Origin: Syncephalis plumigaleata
Taxonomy: Eukaryota; Zoopagomycota; Zoopagomycetes; Zoopagales; Piptocephalidaceae
Length of the DNA stretch: 21,544 nt
NCBI GenBank assembly: GCA_025201365.1
Contig: JAIXMF010000237.1
Span: 1-21,544 of the forward strand
Direction: 5' to 3'
Shown: in pieces, positions 1 through 21,544 of the stretch
Numbering within the stretch: the first letter of the stretch is position 1
How the letters are laid out: every line of letters begins with the position of its first letter
Program-made: the position numbers and the translations under genes
The notes under the pieces: generated by a model
What the model was told of the DNA's origin: nothing
Database searches by the model: none
What the model saw: only the letters and a program-made list of their open reading frames with translations

Positions 1-1121
1 GAGCTTCATGTGCTTTACTATTGCAATCAATGGTAGTCATCCCACCAAGTGTGTTTTCTTTCAGGCTGATCGTCATTGTTAGGCCATCGAATACCCATGA
101 TTGACAATAATACAAGAGCGCATACGAAATGAGGGCATTCAGTATAACCTCTTCAGAATTAAAGGGGGTTTTGGTAGTTGAATCTAATATAATCCAAATT
201 ATTAATGGTATCAAATTTGAAAATAGACCTATTAATGAGAAATATGTAAGCTAGCATGGTGTGTTAGACCTAATATTAAGTATGATGGTTTTACGTACCT
301 GTGTAAATTTGGAAAAGCCTTCTGGGTGGCGCTTTAGTCTATAAGCGTTAATGCCGAACCATATGGCTACGCAAGCAGGCCACAGTTAATACCATGCATG
401 CTTGCTATAATTCTGTACTTACCAAATCCACCAAATAAGATGACACCCGCTGTAGGTATTACTATTAGGCTAATATGGACATCAATAGCAAGAATTCCAA
501 TAGATACAACGTTACTGGATCTATAAACCACAAGAAGTACAAGTCTATATATGTTTCCTGCAACATCAGTCATTATCAGTGTACGAAGAAGTATTATGGA
601 TTTCCTCGAGAATAGATTTCTACCAATGGACGACCTATGAACATGTCAATTGTCAGTGATGCTAATAATCAAATGATAGATTACACACCAATGCCATATA
701 ATCATATCGAATGGAAGCTTGCCTAGGAAACTGTATGCGTACGATGTCCTGTTCATTATAATGGGATCGGTCGAGTAGGCAAAGTATACCAATAATGCTG
801 ACAGTCATGTTAGTAATAGTAAGGTAAATAGGCAACGACTTACTTATGCAATAGGCACAGGTTACAACGAATGATGCTGACAGCAGGTTAAAGCTGAACT
901 TCCTCATCACAATTAACGCAATAGTACGTGCCGATGTGTACAATAATGCCACCAGTATCTGTACTCGCATCATTAGCATTTGTTTACAAATCATTATCGA
1001 TACATACCAATGCAAATAGGGTCCATTTATAGGCCAATCGTTCAGTAGAAAAAAAGAAGTAATTAAATGGATTGGGATCTACGGATAATGATCAGTCAAT
1101 ATACAACTACTATTCATAATA
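1..1121. repeat. Left arm of large inverted repeat
   Basis: The reverse complement of this segment matches 3146-4269. Position p pairs with 4267-p over most of the arm. By eye I found no substitutions. The only differences are three missing bases on this side, all in homopolymers: GGGG to GGG near 152, and GG to G plus TTTTT to TTTT near 50-56. The arm starts at the window edge, so it may extend further. It carries exons 3-8 of the receptor-like gene with their introns. Confidence 0.95.
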
Positions 1122-1710
1122 CTTACCGTGTGTTGCAGTGTACTCATATGCTTTATATTGGCCAACGATCATAAAATCCTTAAATGATACCAAAGTGGAT
1201 TTAGTTTCAATGATCTTCAATGGTGTGGATAATAAATATCTATGAAATGAGTTATCCAAAAAGTACGCGAAATAATCATCATTCCAAAGTGAGAATAGAG
1301 TCAAAGGCTTCGTCATTATAATGAGTTTAATCTGTGCCATAGCATCTGGATGCCATTATCGGATCCATTCATTCATGCTATCGATTATCTAGTATTCGTC
1401 AGTAGACGCGGTTTACCAAGTGATGCTTACTCACATGCTCTACACAATGAGTGTGGTCATAAAAAATGCTGTCGAATACGGCGAAATCGAGGTGTTTCCC
1501 CGCCACCTTAACAAGTTCCTGTATATCTGGATCGGAAGTGTTTGCCGGTGGAAGTTTGCAATGCTCGTCCATAGTCATGTCAACGCCTAATACCATGCCT
1601 TGATGGTTATAACGCTGCTCAGGGCGGAATACAAAATCGTTAGCCTCGTATGTTACGCTGCTATTATCCCTTCCGGTAAGCACGAATTTTGCTTCGATAG
1701 TCGTGCATTG

Positions 1711-1748
1711 CTCTAGTAATAGTAGTAGTAGCAGTAGTAGTAGTAGTG
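1711..1748 (-). repeat. Trinucleotide microsatellite coding for poly-Leu
   Basis: An AGT/AGC repeat on the plus strand reads as CTA/CTG codons on the minus strand. It encodes the run of about 11 leucines in the hydrophobic core of the left copy's signal peptide. The right copy has a shorter, more mixed leucine stretch at this place. Confidence 0.85.
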
Positions 1749-1782
1749 AAAATGAAGTAATGGAGTATGCTGGCGAGGACAT

Positions 1783-2502
1783 ATTGGTAATGTAACAAAA
1801 CGGAATAGAATAGTAGATCTCTGGCAAACTGAGTGGCATAAACACCTGCTATGCTTCTATGAAACGCGTTCACGTGGTCGTCCATTTAAACTGGTTTTAT
1901 TAGTCGAATTACATGACTACTTGTAGTAACCTAATAAATTCATTACCTATTTCGTAATTGCTTACTTATCGATGAATGCGCCATGTCAATCCAACTCGAA
2001 CGGATGACCTTGTCAAGTGATATTATCATGCTTGTACCAAAGCAATCATACTTATTTGTTACAGTAGCTGAATTCTAAGCACAATCGCATTTTACCTGTC
2101 ATCTATGCACGTATCCCTTAGTGAGGGTCTACTACCGCCACAATGTTACACTGCATGCCTCCCTAATGAACAACAAACGCGTTATAATCGATGCTTCTCT
2201 TATTTATCAAACAACTACATGTAATGAATACAGTTGACAAATTCAACTAGACATCAATAGATAGATAGATGTTATCGTGCCGTGCCTATGATGTAGACAT
2301 CCTCATATACTCACGTATGATTCAGTTTAATGCGTCATAAGAAGATGAATGGAAATGCAATTGGGATTTAATGGCCTGCATGGCCTGAATGGAAAACCTG
2401 TTATCAATGAACAAATATTGCAACAAACACTGTGGTATATATTTCCATGATCGTATGCCGTCGAATGGAACAGCAACTCATTCTATTTCGTTTAATTTCA
2501 AC
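1783..2502. promoter_or_regulatory. Divergent intergenic region between the two receptor-like genes
   Basis: About 720 bp separate the two inferred start codons, so any promoters here are shared or back to back. The 30 or so bases before each ATG look alike between the copies (both contain TTCTATT followed by CGTTT), so the duplication included the immediate upstream sequence. A short GATA repeat lies at 2256-2270. Open frames extend upstream of both chosen starts (to 1845 and 2389), but the signal peptides begin at 1782 and 2503. No convincing TATA box or operator was identified. Confidence 0.55.
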
Positions 2503-4289
2503 ATGCTATTTCCAAGATATCAACTTTTACTTTCCCTATTACTTCTGTTATCGCAGCAATGGATGGTTGCCAATGCAAAGCTAACTATCATTAGCAACAA
2601 TGGTACTAAAATAGCATACGAATTAAAAGACCTTCCATTTCGTCCGGAGCAGCCTTATAGTTATAATGGCATAATATTAGATAATCTTCTTTCGACACAA
2701 TACGATTGCACTTTTCCTTCAGTTAATGCCTCTGACCCGGATTTGCAAAGAGTAGCCAAGATAGCATCGGAATATCCCGATTTTGCATTATTTGCTAGCA
2801 TTGGTTTTGTCGAAGAGTGCAATGTGGACCAGGTAAGTTAATGTCATCTCAATTTCTTATACTGACCAATTATAGGCTACCAAGGCAATAAGCAACTGGA
2901 TTCAACAATGGCATGCGTTTGGACTGCCTCAAATTAAACTAATTGTGCAATATTCCGCAGGAGATATTCATAATACGAATACACTCGGAAGTTATGTTAG
3001 ATTTCCGGTCAATAGCCCTTTTATACGATATGTGCCATCAACTCCTATCAAGGTGGCCGGGACCCAGGAATATTTGCCAATAATGAATTATTCAATAAAT
3101 ATAGGCGAATATGTTATATACAACTACACTGCAACCCACGGTAATTATTATGAATAGTAGTTGTATATTGACTGATCATTATCCGTAGATCCCAATCCAT
3201 TTAATTACTTCTTTTTTTCTACTGAACGATTGGCCTATAAATGGACCCTATTTGCATTGGTATGTATCGATAATGATTTGTAAACAAATGCTAATGATGC
3301 GAGTACAGATACTGGTGGCATTATTGTACACATCGGCACGTACTATTGCGTTAATTGTGATGAGGAAGTTCAGCTTTAACCTGCTGTCAGCATCATTCGT
3401 TGTAACCTGTGCCTATTGCATAAGTAAGTCGTTGCCTATTTACCTTACTATTACTAACATGACTGTCAGCATTATTGGTATACTTTGCCTACTCGACCGA
3501 TCCCATTATAATGAACAGGACATCGTACGCATACAGTTTCCTAGGCAAGCTTCCATTCGATATGATTATATGGCATTGGTGTGTAATCTATCATTTGATT
3601 ATTAGCATCACTGACAATTGACATGTTCATAGGTCGTCCATTGGTAGAAATCTATTCTCGAGGAAATCCATAATACTTCTTCGTACACTGATAATGACTG
3701 ATGTTGCAGGAAACATATATAGACTTGTACTTCTTGTGGTTTATAGATCCAGTAACGTTGTATCTATTGGAATTCTTGCTATTGATGTCCATATTAGCCT
3801 AATAGTAATACCTACAGCGGGTGTCATCTTATTTGGTGGATTTGGTAAGTACAGAATTATAGCAAGCATGCATGGTATTAACTGTGGCCTGCTTGCGTAG
3901 CCATATGGTTCGGCATTAACGCTTATAGACTAAAGCGCCACCCAGAAGGCTTTTCCAAATTTACACAGGTACGTAAAACCATCATACTTAATATTAGGTC
4001 TAACACACCATGCTAGCTTACATATTTCTCATTAATAGGTCTATTTTCAAATTTGATACCATTAATAATTTGGATTATATTAGATTCAACTACCAAAACC
4101 CCCTTTAATTCTGAAGAGGTTATACTGAATGCCCCTCATTTCGTATGCGCTCTTGTATTATTGTCAATCATGGGTATTCGATGGCCTAACAATGACGATC
4201 AGCCTGAAAGAAAAACACCACTTGGTGGGATGACTACCATTGATTGCAATAGTAAAGCACATGAAGCTCCCATGTACAGCAAACAATAG
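2503..4289 (+). CDS. Receptor-like membrane protein: signal peptide, ectodomain, about 7 membrane segments (intact copy)
   Basis: Eight inferred exons: 2503-2832, 2876-3140, 3189-3259, 3309-3423, 3470-3578, 3633-3844, 3901-3972 and 4039-4289, giving 474 residues. Introns are 43-66 nt; intron 4 (3424-3469) has a perfect TACTAAC branch site. The start at 2503 puts the signal peptide (LLLSLLLLL core, ending near ANA) first; an in-frame ATG also lies at 2389. The ectodomain (about residues 24-198) has FRPEQ, ASDPD, two cysteines shared with the left copy and several N-x-S/T sequons. The middle (FALFASIGF, a cysteine, then ATKAISNW) is weakly reminiscent of protease-associated domains, which I cannot confirm. 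After it come roughly seven hydrophobic segments and a polar tail ending at TAG 4289. The exon 7 donor is the weakest call: the strong GTACGT at 3969 breaks the frame, so GTAAAA at 3973 is used. Receptor function is inferred from architecture only; no family is recognised. Confidence 0.7.
2833..2875 (+). other. Intron 1 of the right receptor-like gene
   Basis: This 43 nt intron has donor GTAAGT, branch-like ACTGAC and acceptor TATAG. It sits in phase 0 between the signal/ectodomain exons. The left copy has a 46 nt intron at the same codon boundary (1389-1434) with donor GTGAGT, branch TACTGAC and acceptor CTAG. The shared position confirms that the two genes are paralogues and that the splice calls are right. 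Confidence 0.85.
3141..3188 (+). other. Intron 2 at the ectodomain/membrane-module junction
   Basis: This 48 nt intron has an atypical donor, GTAATT, where the left copy has GTAAGT (1121-1126). The acceptor is CCGTAG. If retained, translation ends at an in-frame TAG six codons on, giving an ectodomain without membrane segments. Splicing joins the ectodomain to exon 3 through a split Asp codon. Confidence 0.75.
3146..4269. repeat. Right arm of large inverted repeat
   Basis: Inverted match to 1-1121. The match begins at the sixth base of intron 2 (3141-3188) of the right gene. Just inside that point the copies differ in the splice donor (GTAATT here, GTAAGT in the left copy) and rapidly lose similarity. 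It carries the membrane-spanning exons, and introns are as conserved as exons. Confidence 0.95.
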
Positions 4290-5225: not shown

Positions 5226-8200
5226 ATGGAAAGGCCTTTGTCTTTCCTTCTTTCTCTTTCGATTACTATTACTATTACTATCATAATTATTACTATTTTA
5301 TTATTACTCGCACTAGCATTGTTATCGTTGTTACAGCCTCCTATCTATTTCAGTGTCATGTACGTATTATTTCATGATAAAAGTTTTCCAGGATACGTGT
5401 CGCCAATCGATGCAAGCGATATAGTTAAAGACGCTCATGGCGTTGCTGTCACTGCCACTACATTATCGGAGCAATTGAACGGTTTACCTGGTGGACAGGC
5501 ACACACGTTGATATCACTACACGGTGCTTATTTCCCCTGTAGAGCATGGCCGGCAATATATCAATTCCTACAAGGAGGCGGCAACCTTATCGTGGCAGGT
5601 GGCCCTGCCTTCTCGCGTCCCGTTCATTGGAAGGCCGCAAACGGTGGTAGCTGGGAAGCAGAACCGGAAACCTGGATCTATTGTCGTCAATTACGCTTAG
5701 GTCCATTCGTACCCATTGATCTAGCCAGTGTTTGTTACGAGGAGCATGTGGAGCATAGTAATAGCGGCACTGCTACAACTACCGCTTCCAGCATTGAATA
5801 CGCTCTAATGCCGACTAGACGAGCACATTTCCTATTGCCTGCACTTAGATCGATGATAGGCAAGGATAAATTACTAGTTGATCCTACCATGGACACCTTT
5901 TGGGCATCCACTCCTCAATTATCCGAGACCAATAGTTATCCGGGCGAGGAGGGAAGTACAGGTGCACTGGATACAATGCTACTTCCACTGGCTACCGTGC
6001 ATCCCGTCTGGAGTAGGCAACGAGTGTCGGGACAACAACTGGCCACGCCATTACTTATTCTAGACCAGTTGAATGGCAGTTTCCGCGGTGGTCGATGGCT
6101 CATCATACCGTGGTCGAGACGAACATTGAATGCACAGGCGTATTACCGCTACGTACAACTGATCGGTGCGTGCTATCCACTAGTGGCTGCTGGTAGTAAA
6201 ACGCTGGATATTCAACCGACACTCAGCTGTTATCGTATGAATGAACGACCAACCATTCAGATTGAATGGCAAAGACCGCGCAACAAGTATTCCAATCCAA
6301 TACTGGAGTCAGGCGAGAAGTGGTGTATACGCTTGACGGTCAAGGCACCTGGTAAGCAATTCAAAGAGATATTCGACTTGTCCATTCCAATGAACGATCA
6401 GGAATCCGATTGCTACGAATATCCGTTGCCATTTGCCGCGGAGATCCAGGGCATGTACACACTGGTGGCTATTTATTCAACAAACACGCTACCCGACAAG
6501 AAGCTGTATCAAACCGATGGATTTATCACATGGAATGATGATGTCGCTCGATTGTGCGATCGATTACGACCTGGTCGTAATTTGTTCTTCAAAAGCCAGC
6601 AGGATAATCCGTGCAAGGAACAGGCATGGTTCATGTTCGGCACGACCTATATGGATTCTCGTGTACAACGCCACTATTTGCACAAGCCAAATCCACTTCG
6701 TTGGAGTTGCGATCTGCAAAACATGAAGGCGTGCGGTGTAAACACCATTCGAACGGGATTATGGTGTGGTTGGCGTGATTGGTACAGTAATCGTAGTAGT
6801 CGCAGCAACCATAGTAACAGTTGTAATGATGATAACAATGCTAACGATGATGAAATGGATATATCGCCACCTAAAGAATTAATGCGAGCATTAGACGCGT
6901 TTATTATGGTGATATGTCGACATAAACTACAGGTGATCTTTAATATCTACGCGTTTACACCAACGCCCACCGGTAAGCATCCGTATCTGGATCCAGATAG
7001 CGTTGAACAGCAGGAGAGGTTTATCACATTCCTCGCTCGTACCTACGCGGCATTCTCTTGCGTACACTGGGATCTCATCAATGAGCCTAGTTTCGGTGGG
7101 CCTAATCAACTATGGAGTGGCCGCGCTCGACCTAACGGCGACATTTACGAGAGGGAAGCATTCGGCGAATGGATGCAGCAGCAGTATACGACGCTCGATC
7201 GTGTTCGTACACGCTGGCAACTACTATATCCCGAACCTGTTTCATGGCAGCAAATACCATTACCCGTGGATGCCGATTACAATGATCAACCGGGTAATAC
7301 GGCATTCCGTCGTATGTTGCGTGCCGGCGATTTTACACGAGCATCGCAGCATTGGTTCCGTCGATGGGCGTCTAGAATGGCCAACACCATACGCGACACC
7401 GGCTGCAAGGGAATGGTGACGGTGGGGCAGGATGAAGGAGCGCTAAGACCGTTGCCGTTGTATCATGCGCCTGCTATCGATTTCACTGCAACTCATCCGT
7501 GGTGGAACAACAACGACATACTATGGGATTATCTAACGGCTAAAACGTTGAATAAACCGGCGATTGCCGAGGAGGTGGGTGTAATGCTGGCACGCGATCT
7601 ATACGGCAGATCATTTCGTAGTGAGTTGAACAATGCCGCATTGCTCAAGCGTAAGCTATACCTGTCATTATGCTTGGGCGGGATGATTCAATGGTTGTGG
7701 TATACGAATGCCTACATGACAAGCGATAACGAGTGTCAAATTGGTATGATACGCGCGGATGGTAGTCAGAAACCGGAACTATTGATTTATTTGAAGTTTA
7801 GCGATCTCATCGAACGAATACAACATCGATGGCTCGACAATAGTGTGGAGTTGTCACAGCATGCTACTCGACAGAATGGCATGGCAAATGATTCTACTCC
7901 ACCATCACCAGTATCAATAGAACAGGATTGTCTTGATGGTCATTGCAATGCTACTACTACTACTACTACTACTGCCAGCACCGTATGGCTTGTCGTATTG
8001 GATCATCAATGTTTTGCGCATCCTGATCTCACGATGAAAGCAACTAAAATGGCCGTACGCGTACTTAGTAGTCGATTCAGTATTCTACCGCAACTAGTCA
8101 CGGAGGAGACAATAGGACAACTAGCATCATACGCCAATCAATCTAGCGTGAATGCGTTACCGACATCGCTACAACCATTACCGCAACTTGTTATTGTGCC

Positions 8201-8852
8201 AGGCGCACAACTCATCAGTGATGCCGCATTCACCGGTCTATGTTGGTTGGCGGGTCAACAGGTACACGTACACATAAGCGGCATAGTGGAACAGAATGAA
8301 GATGCAATTCCCGCTTTATTACGTTTGAATCAAATGGGTATCTCGTCGAATAAGCTAGCATCATTGTCAGCGTCAATACAACCGATCTCCCGTTATGAAA
8401 TGGTTATGCCATCCTGTGCATCGGCTCAGTTCTCCGGCGACACCATTGAATACGTTAAAAAGTCCACTATACCACCGGTTGATCGACTTTTACGTAAAGG
8501 TAATTTCAGTTGGACGGGTATACCAGTGGAATTGAACGATCAACCAGATATTGTGACTGCACTTTATTCGCAACTATTACGTAAAACACCAAGAAAGGAT
8601 TGTGGTCTACTTGTACTTAAACGACCATTACGACATGGATATCTAGTGGTACTCATTAATGAATCATCTCATCCTATTAGTTATACGCTCAATTTGAATA
8701 TGGAGAATGACAAATCGCAACAATTACTATTTCCATTAGTGGTGAAAGGCGAGGATTCCGGTGCCATTGTCGTGATACACGAACCTAATAATACATCTAA
8801 CGAGAATGGAGCCTTTCTATTTGGCGGTGTTAATCACCGTAAAACCAAGTAA
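5226..8852 (+). CDS. Membrane-anchored clan GH-A glycoside hydrolase, beta-galactosidase-like
   Basis: Single uninterrupted frame of 1208 residues from ATG 5226, chosen because a hydrophobic signal-anchor (about residues 5-45, Ile/Leu/Thr-rich) follows at once. In-frame ATGs at 5082, 5100 and 5136 are alternatives, and the frame is open from 5037. Layout: anchor; a Rossmann-like stretch (GGGNLIVAGG, about residue 120); a beta-rich middle; then a TIM-barrel from about residue 485, opening with GTTYMDSR and a D..NMK.CGVNTIR segment as in GH42/GH5-type enzymes. Probable acid/base Glu620 lies in NEP (codon 7083-7085); probable nucleophile is Glu783 in EEVG (codon 7572-7574). C-terminal of the barrel, a second Rossmann-like segment around VIVPGAQLISDAAF resembles the GH42 trimerisation domain. 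Asn/Ser-rich and poly-Thr insertions (near 6790-6860 and 7945-7975) look like local expansions. It would act on glycans outside the cell or in the secretory lumen. Substrate and exact GH family are not determined. Confidence 0.8.
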   Translation: MERPLSFLLSLSITITITIIIITILLLLALALLSLLQPPIYFSVMYVLFHDKSFPGYVSPIDASDIVKDAHGVAVTATTLSEQLNGLPGGQAHTLISLHGAYFPCRAWPAIYQFLQGGGNLIVAGGPAFSRPVHWKAANGGSWEAEPETWIYCRQLRLGPFVPIDLASVCYEEHVEHSNSGTATTTASSIEYALMPTRRAHFLLPALRSMIGKDKLLVDPTMDTFWASTPQLSETNSYPGEEGSTGALDTMLLPLATVHPVWSRQRVSGQQLATPLLILDQLNGSFRGGRWLIIPWSRRTLNAQAYYRYVQLIGACYPLVAAGSKTLDIQPTLSCYRMNERPTIQIEWQRPRNKYSNPILESGEKWCIRLTVKAPGKQFKEIFDLSIPMNDQESDCYEYPLPFAAEIQGMYTLVAIYSTNTLPDKKLYQTDGFITWNDDVARLCDRLRPGRNLFFKSQQDNPCKEQAWFMFGTTYMDSRVQRHYLHKPNPLRWSCDLQNMKACGVNTIRTGLWCGWRDWYSNRSSRSNHSNSCNDDNNANDDEMDISPPKELMRALDAFIMVICRHKLQVIFNIYAFTPTPTGKHPYLDPDSVEQQERFITFLARTYAAFSCVHWDLINEPSFGGPNQLWSGRARPNGDIYEREAFGEWMQQQYTTLDRVRTRWQLLYPEPVSWQQIPLPVDADYNDQPGNTAFRRMLRAGDFTRASQHWFRRWASRMANTIRDTGCKGMVTVGQDEGALRPLPLYHAPAIDFTATHPWWNNNDILWDYLTAKTLNKPAIAEEVGVMLARDLYGRSFRSELNNAALLKRKLYLSLCLGGMIQWLWYTNAYMTSDNECQIGMIRADGSQKPELLIYLKFSDLIERIQHRWLDNSVELSQHATRQNGMANDSTPPSPVSIEQDCLDGHCNATTTTTTTASTVWLVVLDHQCFAHPDLTMKATKMAVRVLSSRFSILPQLVTEETIGQLASYANQSSVNALPTSLQPLPQLVIVPGAQLISDAAFTGLCWLAGQQVHVHISGIVEQNEDAIPALLRLNQMGISSNKLASLSASIQPISRYEMVMPSCASAQFSGDTIEYVKKSTIPPVDRLLRKGNFSWTGIPVELNDQPDIVTALYSQLLRKTPRKDCGLLVLKRPLRHGYLVVLINESSHPISYTLNLNMENDKSQQLLFPLVVKGEDSGAIVVIHEPNNTSNENGAFLFGGVNHRKTK
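7948..7975 (+). repeat. ACT trinucleotide repeat coding for poly-Thr
   Basis: Consecutive ACT codons encode about seven threonines in the linker after the glycosidase barrel. It keeps the frame, and its length is likely to vary between strains. Confidence 0.8.
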
Positions 8853-9056
8853 ACAGATATAACAGAAGGAAGATCAGTTAGATGAATACAATAATACACT
8901 ATTTTATGGTTAATTCATAGATTTACTATTAATATTACTGCTAATAAAAGATGAATAAATGGACCAACTTCATTGGTATACATAAAAATGCCGCCTAAAT
9001 ATGCTTAGAATCACAGAGAAATGAGTGTTATTGATGTAGTTGCTGTAATTGCTTGC
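8853..9056. terminator. Convergent 3' region of the glycosidase and NST1 genes
   Basis: Only 204 bp lie between the two stop codons. Two AATAAA hexamers on the plus strand, at 8943-8948 and 8954-8959, are likely polyadenylation signals for the glycosidase. No matching hexamer was seen on the minus strand for NST1. Confidence 0.55.
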
Positions 9057-12000: not shown

Positions 12001-13951
12001 TTGTTCGTAGGCTATGTCATCCTCCTGTTGAAGTCGTCGTTCTGCCAAACGTTCCATCATGTCCAAGAACTTTTTACCATCGTTTTGTAGTAGATCATCG
12101 GCCACCGTTAGAATACCGCCTAATTCATATGTACGTGCTTCAGTTCATTTGTATACATGTATATCGATAATAATACTAATCATTCTAATAGTTATTACTA
12201 TATATACCTTTAACTGTTAGACTGCTGCCAAAATTGAAATATGAACTGCGTATATCGGCCATTCGATCGCGTGAGATACCATCGATATGAGATTGATCAT
12301 GATGATCGTAGTATAGATTGATATTAACTTCATCATCACTAGCATCGACATGATCATCGATTGCTTCATTGCCATTATGATGATGATGATGATGATGATG
12401 ATGGTGATGATCAAGTTCATGTCTGACGTGTTCATCGATACATGTGTCCCTATCATCTAATTCTACATGAATTGCATTGTCATGAAGATCATCGTCTTGA
12501 TTACACTAAATATCATATATTCATTAGATGTCTATGGCTCATTTGTACCTTACTAACAATATACTAACCGATTGTGCCTGATGTATGTCCGATATCAATG
12601 TAGATGCATCTGTATGATTTGGTTCCGTGTTGTCTTCATTCAGTGTTTGTTTTGTTACTTTCTGTGTAGATGATGATGATGATGATGGTGAGAATGTCTG
12701 TTTGGTACGAGATGCATTGGCGGTATTGGTACATGTGTGCTTAGCTAATAGTTCTTCATCTGACCAAGTATCAGATGGTTCACTCGATTCATTCCTAAAT
12801 CTTAACTGTTGATGTTGCTTTTGTTGTTGTTGCTGTTGCTGTTGCTGTTGTTGGTTAGCGTATTGTTCTAGTTCTTCATAATACGCATCGTATAAGATCT
12901 CCAATTCCTCTTCAATAGCAGTGCGCTTCCTACCACAAAATGAACATGAGCAGTTACGCTTTTGTTGCTCCTTAAGCTTCTGCAGCACGGCCTCCTTCTC
13001 AACTTTAACCAATGCACGTCGCTCCTCCTCGCCAAGCTGCAACCAGAACTCGCGTATCTTTTGTCGATTATCGTATGTGTCATTGCTCCATAGATCATAG
13101 TCATAGTGCGAGTCGTACGCTTGCATCTGATACTGATAGCGGTCATCGTGAAATCGCTCGTATAATTCGGCGTGTTGCATCGTTTCATCGGCATAGTGAA
13201 TGTCACTGTCGTTGTTTCTCATGCTCGTTGCCATCTTATTCTTACGATGCTTCTTTTTCTTTTTCTTACCACCATTCGATGTCAAATTGCCATGCTGATG
13301 TGTTGCTAATGGCAGTGTAGATGCTGCTGCCATGGGTATATCCAATGATGCTGATGCTGCCGCTGCCATTGCATGATGATCATTCGCGCAACATTCGTGA
13401 TGATTCTGATTGTGAACGAGATTACCCGTGATCACTTCTTGAGGTAGATGATGACGTCGTCGCTGACGTCGCCTGGATCCGGCCACTTTAACACCACTTG
13501 TATGATTGATCATATTGCCGCCTGTACTAGGAGTTGCACTGCTGCCGTTCATGCTACCGGAATACCCGCTGGAAACGGAACATTCGGATTCGCTACCTCT
13601 TGCGGAAAGACGCGTGTCAGGATATCGCCTTGCATTCAAATGTCGCTGGTGTTGTTGCTGTTGCTGTTGCTGTTGCTGGTCAATACGACAAGCCGTGTCA
13701 TATGCCACGACGTCCAGCGCAGCATCAATATCGTGTGTAGTATGCCTCGTCGAATCCGTTTGCTTCCTCCTAGACTTGTCCATTTTGTGTGTTCCATTCC
13801 CATCATGCGTAGCTATGGTGTGTTCCTTGCAATTTCTCGACAATATTGCATAGTTTGCCGGTTGCTCCTCCGAAGTTGTATGATGTTGACTGGCAATACG
13901 TGCTGGCGGTGGTAAGGTCTCCTCGGCTGGAAACCTACGCTGTGTTGTCAT
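9057..13951 (-). CDS. NST1: Stress response protein NST1
   Basis: Seven exons on the minus strand: 12569-13951, 12208-12505, 11935-12119, 11767-11871, 10335-11712, 9886-10262 and 9057-9806. They join in frame to 1491 residues; introns are 54-88 nt. NST1 hallmarks appear in order. [12 protein letters not shown] tract (about 238) is followed by [21 protein letters not shown] and a [10 protein letters not shown] cysteine motif (about 299-345). [12 protein letters not shown] follows, then [12 protein letters not shown] across intron 2, an acidic run, and [16 protein letters not shown]. Next is a long Glu/Arg/Lys helix (about 657-770) and a Ser/Thr/Gln-rich tail. Poly-Gln (about 93 and 366) and poly-His runs are present. 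In yeast NST1 is linked to salt tolerance; other fungal NST1 proteins are reported as stress-related. Biochemistry is unclear. The last intron (9807-9885) uses acceptor AAAG because the nearer TTAG breaks the frame. The C-terminal exon is the least certain part. The gene is convergent with the glycosidase and divergent from the zinc-finger gene. Confidence 0.93.
12376..12403 (-). repeat. ATG/CAT microsatellite coding for poly-His in NST1
   Basis: The GAT repeat on the plus strand reads as consecutive CAT codons on the minus strand, giving a run of about ten histidines in NST1 exon 2. Confidence 0.85.
12813..12853 (-). repeat. CAA/CAG repeat coding for poly-Gln in NST1
   Basis: Alternating CAA and CAG codons on the minus strand encode about 12 glutamines right after the conserved [13 protein letters not shown] motif. 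A second such tract lies near 13648-13680. Both keep the reading frame. Confidence 0.85.
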
Positions 13952-16732: not shown

Positions 16733-18297
16733 TTACTTGGCAAAATTAGCAATAAACTTGTTTTTCTTTAACATCATGGAATGTTCGACAAAGTTACATA
16801 GTCGATTGTAAACTTCTAACTCTGATTTTTTACAAAAGTATCAGCTTTCAAGCTTTGACACTTTGACTAGTGGGACTACCCGGTTTGAGACTATCAGTCT
16901 GTATTGATCTACTAGGCCTTTTTTTGCGCCTGCACATTGATACCAAAAACGACGCGCTTCGGCAATTGTGCTCTCCCCCTGCGGTTTCCTAAACACGAGC
17001 TTCTAATGATTACGCTGAACATACGCGGTAAACAGAGGAGGTATCGCGGATGTTCTATCGGCTGTTTTGTTGCAGTATACGGTCCTTTTTTGTTCATTAA
17101 TCGATCAACCTATATGGGGAATTCCTCACAAATTGCACCGTCACCATTTGCGTTCTTGGCGTATTCAATGACCATACCACTCTACCGATACCGATTGACA
17201 TCTTGACAAGTGTACGATAATTCATATGAACAATGCTTATACTTTGAATGAAAATAAAATAAAACCTTTCATATCAATTAATATGTATATTGTCGAGTAG
17301 ATCTGCGGTAATTGTTGCAAAAAATTACGGCACTCGGCAAAGTTAAAACTGGGGTATACGGAGCTCTAAATAAAACTAGCCGTATATCCAATAAGCCAAG
17401 GTGATATAAAACGTGAACCGAACGCTAGCATGAGGATTAAAACGCGAGATTATAAATAAATCAATGTGTTTGCTGCTGCTGTGTCCTTTCTTCCCTCCAC
17501 CAACAACATCAACATCAATAACAATCGCTATCAACTACATCGCTACTTGTGGCGCCGTAAATCAGTGCCATATCCATCGTTCACTTTTATCTGTCTTATT
17601 TACCGTATCAAAAAAACAAGCATCCTCCCTATAAACTCATATAGTACCAGTTTCCCTATTCCATCGGTAAGTGTTCGTTGTCATGGTATTGAGTAGGCGG
17701 CGCATCAAATAGTAATAACAACTATCATTGTCCGCTCGACAATAATAGCGTAATATCAAGCAGAAATTAATTGAGACTTATTCAATATGCTTTCCTTGGT
17801 GATTATTGCCGTGTAGTCCGTGTATCCACTAATGGATACTTTGGCTTCTTTCCATCTGCACTACTCTTGTATAGTTTTGTTGATATTACGCGTTTATACT
17901 TTATAATAGTCAGTGTTCGAACATTGTATATTTACCTTTTTTTCCCTTCAACTGCATCATAGCATTCAAACGGTATCTAATTCATTCGTTTCTTCATCCG
18001 TTATTGCGCGTATTATTTGCTTGTACATATATCTTGAATTACACCAAGGCATTATGCTTTTGTAATAGCATCATTATCATTCTGAATATCATTGTAATCA
18101 TTCGACTAGCTTACTAACACTAATCAATTACACGTCTATTTCATCAGGCATTTATTTGGAAGGTTATCTCTCAAGCTGGTTTTACACGTAGTATTTTACA
18201 TACTGCTTACTTGGGTAACATTCTAAATTTACTTTCTCGCTCTCCGATTACTTTTACAACTAATATACTCCATTTGGAGCAACATTATTTACTATCG

Positions 18298-18360
18298 GTA
18301 AGCGTCATTTATTCATATAGTTTGTATCTAACTCACTTATTATTATTATCATCCTCACAG
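18298..18360 (+). other. Probable intron in the 5' leader of the zinc-finger gene
   Basis: Donor GTAAGC, branch-like CTAAC and acceptor CTCACAG delimit 63 nt. The length is a multiple of three and contains no stop, so an open frame runs straight through it and wrongly suggests a longer hydrophobic N-terminus. Confidence 0.6.
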
Positions 18361-18426
18361 CTTCATCTGTCTGGCTGTTTACTTCTTATTAATACGGCGA
18401 ATAATTGTTACGACAAGCTTAGGAAA

Positions 18427-20043
18427 ATGCTATCAACTGGTGAGTTATCATTATTACGCGTTTTGAATGTCGCACCAATATTATTCGTATCTATACTTTT
18501 ACTAATACATCAATTAGCACGTCTAGACTTTGCAAGCAACAGTGCAATGAAGAAACCGCATCAACTTCGAGCGTTGGATCTTCCACAATGCTTGCCTACT
18601 CGTCGTACTGATTCACTACCCGAACTAGCCGTACCTTATAGTCCCGTAGGAGGAGCGGAGAAATCCACGACCTTCTCCTTACCGCCAATATCCTCGCTCA
18701 TTAATAACGCGGAAGATCTAACTGAGGAATATCCATCTTTTCCTGATTTAAATGATGGCGATGCAAGGAATACGGCAAACGTGCCCTTCTTTAATTCCGC
18801 ACTAGCGATATTCATCCGATACACGCTCATTCCTTGGCCGTATCGCCGGCAACTAATGGCAATCGATGTACAAGTGCTCGACCACTCATCACTCACACTT
18901 GTCTTCACCAGAAACATCAACGCCATCCAAGCATGCTGCCATTTAAGTGTGCTACCATCTTCAAACGCGTTCCAATACACACCGTATTATTGCGAGACTC
19001 AACAGCAACCGCAGCCTCAACATTTGGAGACGGGCGTAACGCCAATATGGCATCGTGATGATCACCAAACGCATTGTGATGGTTTGATGTATCGGCATGT
19101 GTCACACAGGAGTTCCTCCGACAAGCCACCAGTGTTCCATTCTTATCACCGCCATCATCGTGCATCAACACGAGTATTAAGGGAAGAAACCACGTATGAA
19201 TATTCAAGTTATGCCTACCAGTCCTATTATAGCGTATCAGATAATCAATGGGTGACCGCTGGTGGTATCCCGGCGAATGACGAGACAATGCCGCAAGCCA
19301 GCGTTTCACATGAACGTGTCCACCACCTAAGCTGTCATGAAACGCATGCCTCCACCTCGCAATCGATACCCCTCATTGCTGATAGTGCTTCCCCTGCGTC
19401 CCACGCTGAAAATCCGAATCCGAATATTGCAGCCATCGCGGCTCTAAGCACTTCATACACGCCAATGGACCAACCCGTACGGCCTATCGTTAACAATAAG
19501 GCACGCGAGCACGTCTGTCCCGAGTGCGGTCGTGCCTTTCAACGAGCCGAACATGTGCGGCGACATCAGCGCACTCACACGAACGAGCGTCCGTTTGTTT
19601 GTCCGCATCAGGATTGCGGTCGTGCATTTGGTCGATCCGACAATTTGAACGCACATTTACGCAGTCATGAAAAGAAGCAAAAGAAGTATAATTACAATCG
19701 CAGCTTAAGACAACGCAATGTTTTCCGTAATTTCATATTTCACGTTGACATGAACAAGACAAATGAGTATGAAACTGACAATACAAGCTTACTACACCAC
19801 AATGATGGTTTGCCGGTGTATAATAATCCGAATGATTTCACCGGTATGCTAGATAGACCGTATTGGATGGCGTATGATGATGGCTCGGAGGAGCATACCG
19901 GTCTATCTCCAGTGGCCTCATTCAACGGTCATAGCAAGTCTGTCTCTCCAGACTCGACTATTTCTCACTCATCATCAACATCATCATCATCATCAGTACC
20001 AGGCTATTGCTCAAATACACCATCTTTATCGCCATCTTTCTAA
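18427..20043 (+). CDS. Two-finger C2H2 transcription factor, Msn2/Com2-like
   Basis: Inferred exons 18427-18439 and 18518-20043 give 512 residues. The 78 nt intron (18440-18517) has donor GTGAGT, branch TTACTAAT and acceptor AATTAG. ATG 18427 has an AAAATG context; the frame is open back to 18211, but that extension crosses two intron-like segments. Two tandem C2H2 fingers lie at residues 338-358 (C-x2-C-x12-H-x3-H, helix RAEHVRR) and 366-388 (C-x4-C-x12-H-x3-H, helix RSDNLNA), joined by TNERPF. The DNA-contact positions R.EH..R and R.DN match those of yeast Msn2/Msn4, so a target close to the stress element AGGGG is expected by family rule. A basic stretch follows the fingers. The N-terminal two thirds are low in structure and rich in His, Ser and Tyr; the tail is Ser-rich. 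It would act in the nucleus. Msn2, Com2 and CreA-like factors cannot be separated without a tree. Confidence 0.8.
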   Translation: MLSTGELSLLRVLNVAPILFVSILLLIHQLARLDFASNSAMKKPHQLRALDLPQCLPTRRTDSLPELAVPYSPVGGAEKSTTFSLPPISSLINNAEDLTEEYPSFPDLNDGDARNTANVPFFNSALAIFIRYTLIPWPYRRQLMAIDVQVLDHSSLTLVFTRNINAIQACCHLSVLPSSNAFQYTPYYCETQQQPQPQHLETGVTPIWHRDDHQTHCDGLMYRHVSHRSSSDKPPVFHSYHRHHRASTRVLREETTYEYSSYAYQSYYSVSDNQWVTAGGIPANDETMPQASVSHERVHHLSCHETHASTSQSIPLIADSASPASHAENPNPNIAAIAALSTSYTPMDQPVRPIVNNKAREHVCPECGRAFQRAEHVRRHQRTHTNERPFVCPHQDCGRAFGRSDNLNAHLRSHEKKQKKYNYNRSLRQRNVFRNFIFHVDMNKTNEYETDNTSLLHHNDGLPVYNNPNDFTGMLDRPYWMAYDDGSEEHTGLSPVASFNGHSKSVSPDSTISHSSSTSSSSSVPGYCSNTPSLSPSF

Positions 20044-20549: not shown

Positions 20550-21544
20550 TTATAACTGGTAAATACATGCGCCTGCATCAGCATGACAGACAAATGCTCT
20601 CGTATCAAGATGTACTATCCGCCATGTTTGGCGTAATACTCGGTCGAAACACTGGTCAAAAACTGAGTCGCTTGATCTGCTGCAACTAGTGCTATACAGC
20701 AACCGCCCCATCCGGCACCAGTAAGTCTTGCACCATAGGCATTGTACTTTCTATTATTATTACTATCACTACTGCTGTTCATATATTGCAATGTTCTTTA
20801 CTATTACCTGCAGATATCGGTTAATAAATCTAATTCTGGACAGCTACATTCGTAATAGTCTCGACAGCTCGTTTGACTTTGATTCATTAGCTCCCCTAGC
20901 AACTGCGATTAGTTAGCTAGTGTCATGCATACAATCATACATTATTCCTCGTATATAGTACCTGTTTTGAGGTTTGCTGCTGGTCGAGCGAAACATTCTG
21001 ATCGGCGATTTCCATGCAAATTTGACGGAAACGACACACTCGCGCTGCCTCAGAATAGACGTGATACGCCCGGTCATACAGTTTCAATTTGCTTATCCTT
21101 ACGGGAAACCTAGTAAGATAAGTGTTCGAGAGTTCATTGACCTTCAGTAACAACGGTGACATTTAGTAAATGTATCCGTATTGATCAATCTCGCATTAAT
21201 TTACCGTGATTCCTGCTGCCGCCGCTGCTTCCTCCAAAGTGTACGGCGATCGTTTAAATACAATATCCACTTGACTTAGGAATAACTCGAGTGCGTCTGC
21301 ATTCTCGCAAACATTGATACTGCTACCGTATCCATTCTTCGACAGCCATTCTTGGGCAACGCTGCGTAACGTGCATTCCTCTAATAGGATTTATCAGCAT
21401 TTGCAATATCGACATTGGCCGGCGATAAATAAAGTCCAAGCGAGTGAGCCAAAACACGAGCAGCCAATCGTGTCTCCAATACACGTATATTAAATTGGTA
21501 ATCGGCCGCGGCCACCTTCTCTGACACGACCAACGAATCGATAA
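20550..21544 (-). CDS. GAL1: Galactokinase, C-terminal part (5' end off the window)
   Basis: Minus-strand exons 21205-21544 (partial), 20962-21141, 20808-20902 and 20550-20750, with introns of 57-63 nt. The product phosphorylates galactose with ATP at the start of the Leloir pathway in the cytosol. GHMP-kinase galactokinase landmarks appear in order: [68 protein letters not shown], the CSCPELD stretch, and the glycine motif [12 protein letters not shown]; the end is GACIYQL. Two places break the frame: near 21383-21384, between KSY and LEECT, and near 20620, between AKHG and IVHLD. Each would be healed by one extra base in a T or G run, so I read them as sequence errors, though real lesions are possible. 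The gene is convergent with the zinc-finger gene. Confidence 0.85.

Follow-up and report, generated by a model that had tools for sequence, protein, structure and literature searches.

How can two neighboring genes possess membrane-spanning halves that are identical down to their introns while their ectodomains are only distantly related? This question is raised by one end of contig JAIXMF010000237.1 of the fungus Syncephalis plumigaleata (assembly GCA_025201365.1), designated C154 here; the window analyzed is this entire contig (21,544 bp). Two genes are arranged head to head near its start, gene A on the minus strand and gene B on the plus strand, and their outer portions form inverted arms, the left of which is cut by the contig start. 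We consider it very likely that they are a head-to-head inverted pair of paralogous seven-transmembrane (TM)-like genes whose arms are still recombining, with non-crossover repair copying tracts from arm to arm and crossover flipping the loop between them. The analysis covers one assembled genome.

Base-by-base alignment of the reverse-complemented left arm with the right arm (Table 1) gives 1140 identical columns out of 1145. The differences are two substitutions, both at the inner end (1131/3136, near the end of exon 2, and 1122/3145, the fifth base of intron 2), and three 1-bp insertions or deletions (indels; 135/4132, 57/4211, and 51/4218), all of which lie in exon 8 of gene A, no more than 135 bp from the contig start. 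Outward of the sixth base of intron 2 (3146/1121), there is no substitution between the arms over approximately 1.12 kb. The first-pass annotation, which had described identity over about 1.1 kb from this base outward, introns included, is correct apart from the three indels. Inward of the arms, DNA identity between A and B is 37-65% per 60-bp block (approximately 50% overall), 46.4% of sites differ over 2503-3119, and 57 of 173 ectodomain residues are common to both proteins (the A copy of contig C357 standing in for gene A). The splice junction itself is no edge of similarity, as 3125-3144 matches at 19 of 20 bases.

Each arm is part of an eight-exon gene, and GT-AG borders are present at all seven introns in 12 of the 12 copies examined. 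Gene B (plus strand, 2503-4289) has an open frame of 474 predicted residues, comprising a signal-peptide-like start, an ectodomain of approximately 175 residues encoded by exons 1-2, and then a hydrophobic half; hydropathy gives six clear membrane segments after the signal-like start, the seventh being judged by eye. Regarding the protein family, a Pfam search with three spliced A/B-family proteins returned no family above the cut-off (best E 0.37), the G protein-coupled receptor (GPCR) families of Pfam were not recognized in these three, and a search against the sequences of solved structures gave no match for an A/B-family protein (best E 0.65). Judged from its sequence, the build of the A/B proteins looks receptor-like and seven-TM-like. 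A resemblance of the ectodomain to a protease-associated domain was considered from visual inspection as a possibility. According to one account, fungal GPCR classes are defined by Pfam domains, and many fungal seven-TM proteins remain unclassified (PMC12842992). Like fungal GPCRs, the A/B proteins have a predicted extracellular N-terminus and then several membrane passes; they differ from the Pfam-defined classes described there in having no Pfam match (PMC12842992). Distant relatives, alignable over the hydrophobic half, were revealed in the same genome by a protein search that scored 90 of 112 candidates, so that the family count is a lower bound; examples lie on C135/C168, C329, C35/C369, and C157. 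At each such place the matching pieces occupy a single strand, implying that not every family member is an inverted pair.

Searching the genome at the DNA level revealed further A/B copies on contigs C112, C362, C357, C224, and C1. Together with the window they make up at least three loci in this genome, with two haplotypes each (locus I, C154/C112; locus II, C362/C357; locus III, C224/C1), and the two genes stand head to head in all six haplotypes. Individual copies are named below by contig number and gene (e.g., 154A). C154 is an alternative haplotype of C112: window positions 5300-8900 are 98% identical to C112, the sole other match being 33 bp on C1; 0-5 substitutions per kb are found from 12 kb onward; and the last 1,544 bp contain no substitution and five small indels. 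Both ends of C154 are nearly free of substitutions relative to C112, as expected for a haplotype bubble. In these alignments, pieces shorter than 60 bp (C154/C112), 100 bp (self), 150 bp (between contigs), and 400 bp (haplotype comparison) were omitted.

Comparison of the haplotypes indicates how much of the arms is homogenized. Over a core from intron 3 to intron 5, A and B of the same haplotype differ by 0% in C154, 1.6% in C362, 1.9% in C357, and 4.6% in C112, whereas over exons 1-2 A and B differ by 44.8-48.0% across loci I and II (45.5-47.9% within haplotypes). The four A copies are 3.0-3.8% apart over the same exons, across loci. The N-terminal part therefore groups by gene and the membrane part by pair, the latter not cleanly in C112. 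The ectodomain tree is rejected by the core data (approximately unbiased (AU) test, p 5e-60), and the core tree is rejected by the ectodomain data (p 1.3e-4). In a run test on the eight copies of loci I and II (1,715 ungapped columns, 785 of them polymorphic), the longest runs of polymorphic sites agreeing between A and B were 403 (C154), 20, 41, and 56, each equaled in 0 of 5000 column shuffles. As such shuffles are blind to uneven constraint along the gene, intron identity is the stronger argument for conversion. Within C154 and within C362, A and B have identical introns 4 and 5, and within C357 an identical intron 5, yet these introns differ by up to approximately 19% between loci. At locus III, the core introns show zero difference within each haplotype and 2.0% between haplotypes, the arms, located inside contigs, match at 99.9% and 99.7% over 2.08 kb, and the two copies are identical through the ectodomain also. 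Gene conversion between the membrane-module arms of A and B is thus well supported by sequence comparison, and the claim that conversion homogenizes part of the membrane module while the ectodomains differ holds in four A/B haplotypes at two loci.

The edges of the homogenized block differ among haplotypes, and only the core is common to the four A/B haplotypes; the loci may also exchange sequence. In 60-bp blocks over 3283-3582, all four A/B pairs are 92-100% identical. The plateau is left at approximately 3583 in C112, 3643 in C362, and 3703 in C357, and these three pairs are at 38-57% over 3703-3822, where C154 continues at 93-100% to the end. Farther out, the distal half of A at locus II is 40-42% from its own B; that of 112A is another type, 22-24% from the B genes of locus I; and that of 154A is the B half itself (0.3%). 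The A ectodomain thus occurs on three different distal membrane halves, which indicates that ectodomains and distal halves have been re-paired. The first-pass annotation had placed the end of identity exactly at the boundary between ectodomain and membrane exons and had read it as a breakpoint at a domain boundary. The position holds for C154 and not for the family, since the other three A/B haplotypes have other edges; a functional reason for it is not supported, because the inner edge varies, the constant block covers only about intron 3 to intron 5, and the locus III ectodomains are homogenized too. It seems more likely that the tract edge is set by the remaining homology, that is, by the end of A/B alignability, than by protein-domain function, and we infer for all six haplotypes that conversion may reach as far as homology permits. 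A side-by-side comparison of C362:833750-835749 with C357 gave 15-28% difference over the gene B ectodomain and distal exons; the core block 834500-834749 differs by 3.2% and the flanks by 0.4-4.8%.

Besides conversion, the region between the start codons records inversions. The 720-bp loop of C154 is 92.5% identical to that of C112 when inverted and 55.3% in direct orientation, and the loops of C224 and C1 are 98.8% identical inverted and 54.5% direct; the C154 and C362 loops are collinear (93.9%). Opposite loop orientations between haplotypes are thus found at two of three loci (I and III), and locus II is collinear. These inversions point to crossovers as well as conversion. As the layout suggests, a flip through arm recombination would move both ectodomains and the intervening region jointly and rejoin each ectodomain to the opposite arm. 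The proposal that the ectodomain is replaced as a cassette is therefore partly sustained, in that the whole segment between the starts is inverted at two loci and the A ectodomain is found on different distal halves. At locus II, C357:8967-14562 (L013/L014), between genes A and B, is a 5.6-kb insertion absent from C362, with 314-bp direct repeats at both ends that are 100% identical and a 4-bp overlap of the flanks; by these features it looks like a young long terminal repeat (LTR) element.

According to the explanation favored here, the ectodomains of A and B would have diverged long ago, and the inverted membrane-module arms would have continued to recombine. Non-crossover repair would copy tracts from arm to arm, visible as the sequence pattern, and crossover would flip the two ectodomains together with the intervening upstream region, visible as the opposite orientations in two haplotypes. 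In C154, B-type sequence would have replaced the membrane half of A, starting in intron 2 and running outward. The left arm of C112 differs from C154 by 13 substitutions and 31 indel events in 1,548 aligned bases from approximately window position 3320 outward, and the homology of the right arm of C154 to it runs on to approximately 4895. These differences look like mostly uncorrected errors. Outer-arm sequence of this type thus occupies the left arm in both haplotypes and the right arm in C154 alone. A single crossover accompanied by a long conversion tract would account for the inverted loop and the identical arms at once, so that flip and tract in one event are possible; separate events are equally possible.

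The ectodomains themselves evolve differently in the two genes. The ratio of nonsynonymous to synonymous divergence (dN/dS; codons with gaps or stops excluded) is 0.12, 0.12, and 0.27 in three comparisons of A ectodomains. For B, the close pair 154B-362B, whose members belong to different loci, gives 0.38; the remaining four B comparisons within loci I and II give 0.50, 0.56, 0.65, and 0.88 (dS 0.26-0.41). No ectodomain ratio exceeds 1; the value of 1.43 for the TM core of 154B-362B derives from one synonymous change and means little. The two truly allelic B pairs have ectodomain dS of 0.352 and 0.358, and 154B and 362B differ by 3.6% in the ectodomain while differing from their own alleles by 15.7% and 20.0%. 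The flanks differ between haplotypes by 0.5-3.3% per 400 bp at locus I and 0.4-4.8% per 250 bp at locus II. As the allelic divergence of B is far above that of the flanks, the B alleles represent old or imported lineages. Transitions predominate in the differences between A copies (24/26, 20/23, and 22/25 in three comparisons), for which RIP-like mutation was considered as a possible cause. Several copies are broken: exon 2 of 154A carries a CAA-to-TAA change, 112A combines a 1-bp deletion in exon 1 with a TGG-to-TAG change in exon 2, and the last exon-1 codon of 357B is TAG. A single nonsense codon common to both locus I A copies was considered and ruled out, as the changes differ. The many small indels in exons 6-8 of 112B are likely consensus errors. 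Copies 362A, 362B, 154B, those of locus III, and 357A are open, the last codons of 357A lying beyond the stretch read. Neither 154A nor 112A would be a working receptor as predicted, and given the exon-2 stop of 154A, its perfect membrane half is no evidence for a kept signaling function. The earlier reading of a recognition system with variable ectodomains is therefore only partly supported: B alleles are very divergent, but A ectodomains are conserved and both locus I A copies are broken. Likewise, the low-diversity, purifying-like ectodomains that were named as speaking against it are found in A and not in B. A more ambitious reading, in which the loop is an invertible cassette of two ectodomains and the upstream region, core recombination re-pairs ectodomains with distal halves, and old B lineages are kept and shared between loci as a combinatorial polymorphic receptor repertoire, possibly for recognizing partners or other individuals, is doubtful.

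Several points weigh against continuing recombination between the arms as the explanation. The left arm is a contig end whose outer 135 bp carry the three 1-bp indels, the C112 left arm looks poorly corrected, so that assembly quality is weakest just at this arm, and no second contig for the C112 left flank was found in the 6.9 kb searched. In the tree, the 112A core is placed next to locus II and not with 112B (support 67), and the shuffles carry the weakness given above. A separate observation on the C112 arm is that C112:2264916-2266100 is densely strewn with 1-2 bp indels relative to C154, both in introns and in exons, and has few substitutions. An artefact in C154, with the contig end being a copy of the right arm produced by inverted template switching or by an assembler join through the short homology where exon 2 ends, would suit the position of the arm at the contig start, its homopolymer indels, the state of the C112 arm, and the 19 of 20 junction bases common to A and B. 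It is nonetheless unlikely, since the C154 left arm matches that of C112 directly at the corresponding place (94.1% over 1,144 columns, the differences being mostly indels farther out). The homogenized cores of C112, C362, and C357 lie well inside contigs, as do the near-perfect arms of locus III in two contigs, so at most the tract length, and not the process, would be artefactual. The general conversion pattern is independent of the poorly sequenced left arm, on which the full 1.1-kb tract length depends.

A recent inverted duplication in which one ectodomain was later replaced, with no ongoing conversion, would account for the nearly identical arms of C154 taken alone. It is very improbable, because the pair layout is common to three loci, dS between A and B ectodomains is above 2 or saturated, and the distal halves at locus II are far apart, which together indicate that the duplication is old and only the core young. 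Least credible is strong purifying selection on the membrane half alone, which would fit the greater conservation of exons 3-5 than of exons 1-2 and 6-8 between paralogs and the alignability of distant paralogs over the hydrophobic half, but not the intron identities within haplotypes, nor the stop of 154A, which precedes the membrane half so that its own translation cannot preserve it. Recombination between old inverted arms thus stays the preferred explanation, and the features on which it is based are collected in Table 1.

Table 1. Positions of the inverted gene pair in the window (C154)
Feature	Position	Strand	Basis or remark
Left inverted arm: end of exon 2, introns 2-7, exons 3-8 of gene A	1..1142	-	Identity to right arm; cut at contig start
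Gene A exons 3-8 and introns 3-7, hydrophobic half; exon 8 incomplete	1..1078	-	Arm alignment, gene model
Gene A intron 2; identity with gene B starts at sixth base, 1121	1079..1126	-	Arm alignment, gene model
Gene A exon 2, ectodomain; premature TAA (first base 1358)	1127..1388	-	Gene model
Gene A exon 1, signal-peptide-like start and ectodomain	1435..1782	-	Start codon at 1782; 348 bp
Spacer between both start codons, 720 bp; inverted relative to C112	1783..2502		Loop alignment
Gene B exon 1, signal-peptide-like start and ectodomain	2503..2832	+	Gene model
Gene B exon 2, ectodomain	2876..3140	+	Gene model
Right inverted arm: end of exon 2 to exon 8 of gene B	3125..4269	+	Identity to left arm
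Gene B exons 3-5	3189..3578 (3189-3259, 3309-3423, 3470-3578)	+	Gene model
Homogenized core, intron 3 to intron 5	3260..3632	+	A/B divergence in four haplotypes
Gene B exons 6-8, distal membrane half and tail	3633..4289 (3633-3844, 3901-3972, 4039-4289)	+	Gene model

Other genes lie farther along the window. An open frame of 1,175 codons at 5325-8849 (plus strand) is glycoside-hydrolase-like, with a Pfam Cellulase score of 22.3 bits, below the cut-off of 23.5. An NST1 domain is found at 12542-13951 (minus strand; E 4.4e-51), and C2H2 zinc fingers at 18211-20040 (plus strand; E 2.1e-12); genes of both kinds fit a fungus. A search of the genome for IFT57 did not find it, which says little, as the cut-off was passed by none of the 14 control genomes. 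Short open pieces occupy approximately 20615-21544 (minus strand), one of which has a 12-residue stretch that may resemble galactokinase.

TLR1 and TLR6 are single-pass receptors, unlike the A/B proteins. Together with the Saccharomyces flip/flop repeats, they are the closest precedents, and the A/B pair unites features of both in one gene pair. In the flip/flop region of Saccharomyces chromosome XIV, inverted repeats carrying YNL018C/YNL034W are homogenized within strains, and the region between them occurs in both orientations, for which the authors propose conversion and occasional crossover (PMC9731477). The likeness lies in gene-bearing inverted copies homogenized within a genome around a segment found in both orientations; the repeats there measure approximately 4 kb and enclose 24 kb with 15 genes, and homogenization extends across the repeats (PMC9731477). 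The recombining part of the A/B pair, by contrast, is inside both genes; each ectodomain becomes attached to the opposite arm when the loop flips, and at two loci the ectodomains are spared homogenization. In mammalian TLR1/TLR6, the N-terminal parts keep their identity between species, and the C-terminal region including the transmembrane domain is homogenized by conversion (PMC2077338). The A/B pair shares the distinct N-terminal parts and the homogenized, transmembrane-containing region of paralogs, but is inverted, whereas TLR1/TLR6 are tandem paralogs, with no inversion described in the accessible portion of that source (PMC2077338). In S. cerevisiae, template switching at short inverted repeats likewise homogenizes arms and inverts the spacer; it is described for short repeats, whereas the A/B tracts measure some hundreds of bases to more than 1 kb (PMC8604942). 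Among the literature matches listed, none described this gene family or a loop inversion accompanied by recombination within receptor genes, which is not proof of absence.

Inverted paralog pairs that homogenize and flip are therefore known already; here the recombination takes place inside the genes, so that a flip makes a new combination of ectodomain and membrane part. The finding concerns a gene family with no Pfam match, in which the allelic dS of B reaches approximately 0.35 amid flanks that differ by approximately 0.4-4.8%. Six haplotypes of one genome present three outcomes: the ectodomain and distal half escaped, the whole membrane half was overwritten, or the whole gene was overwritten. 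With these three outcomes in six haplotypes, it can be tested directly how far conversion reaches in relation to the homology that remains.

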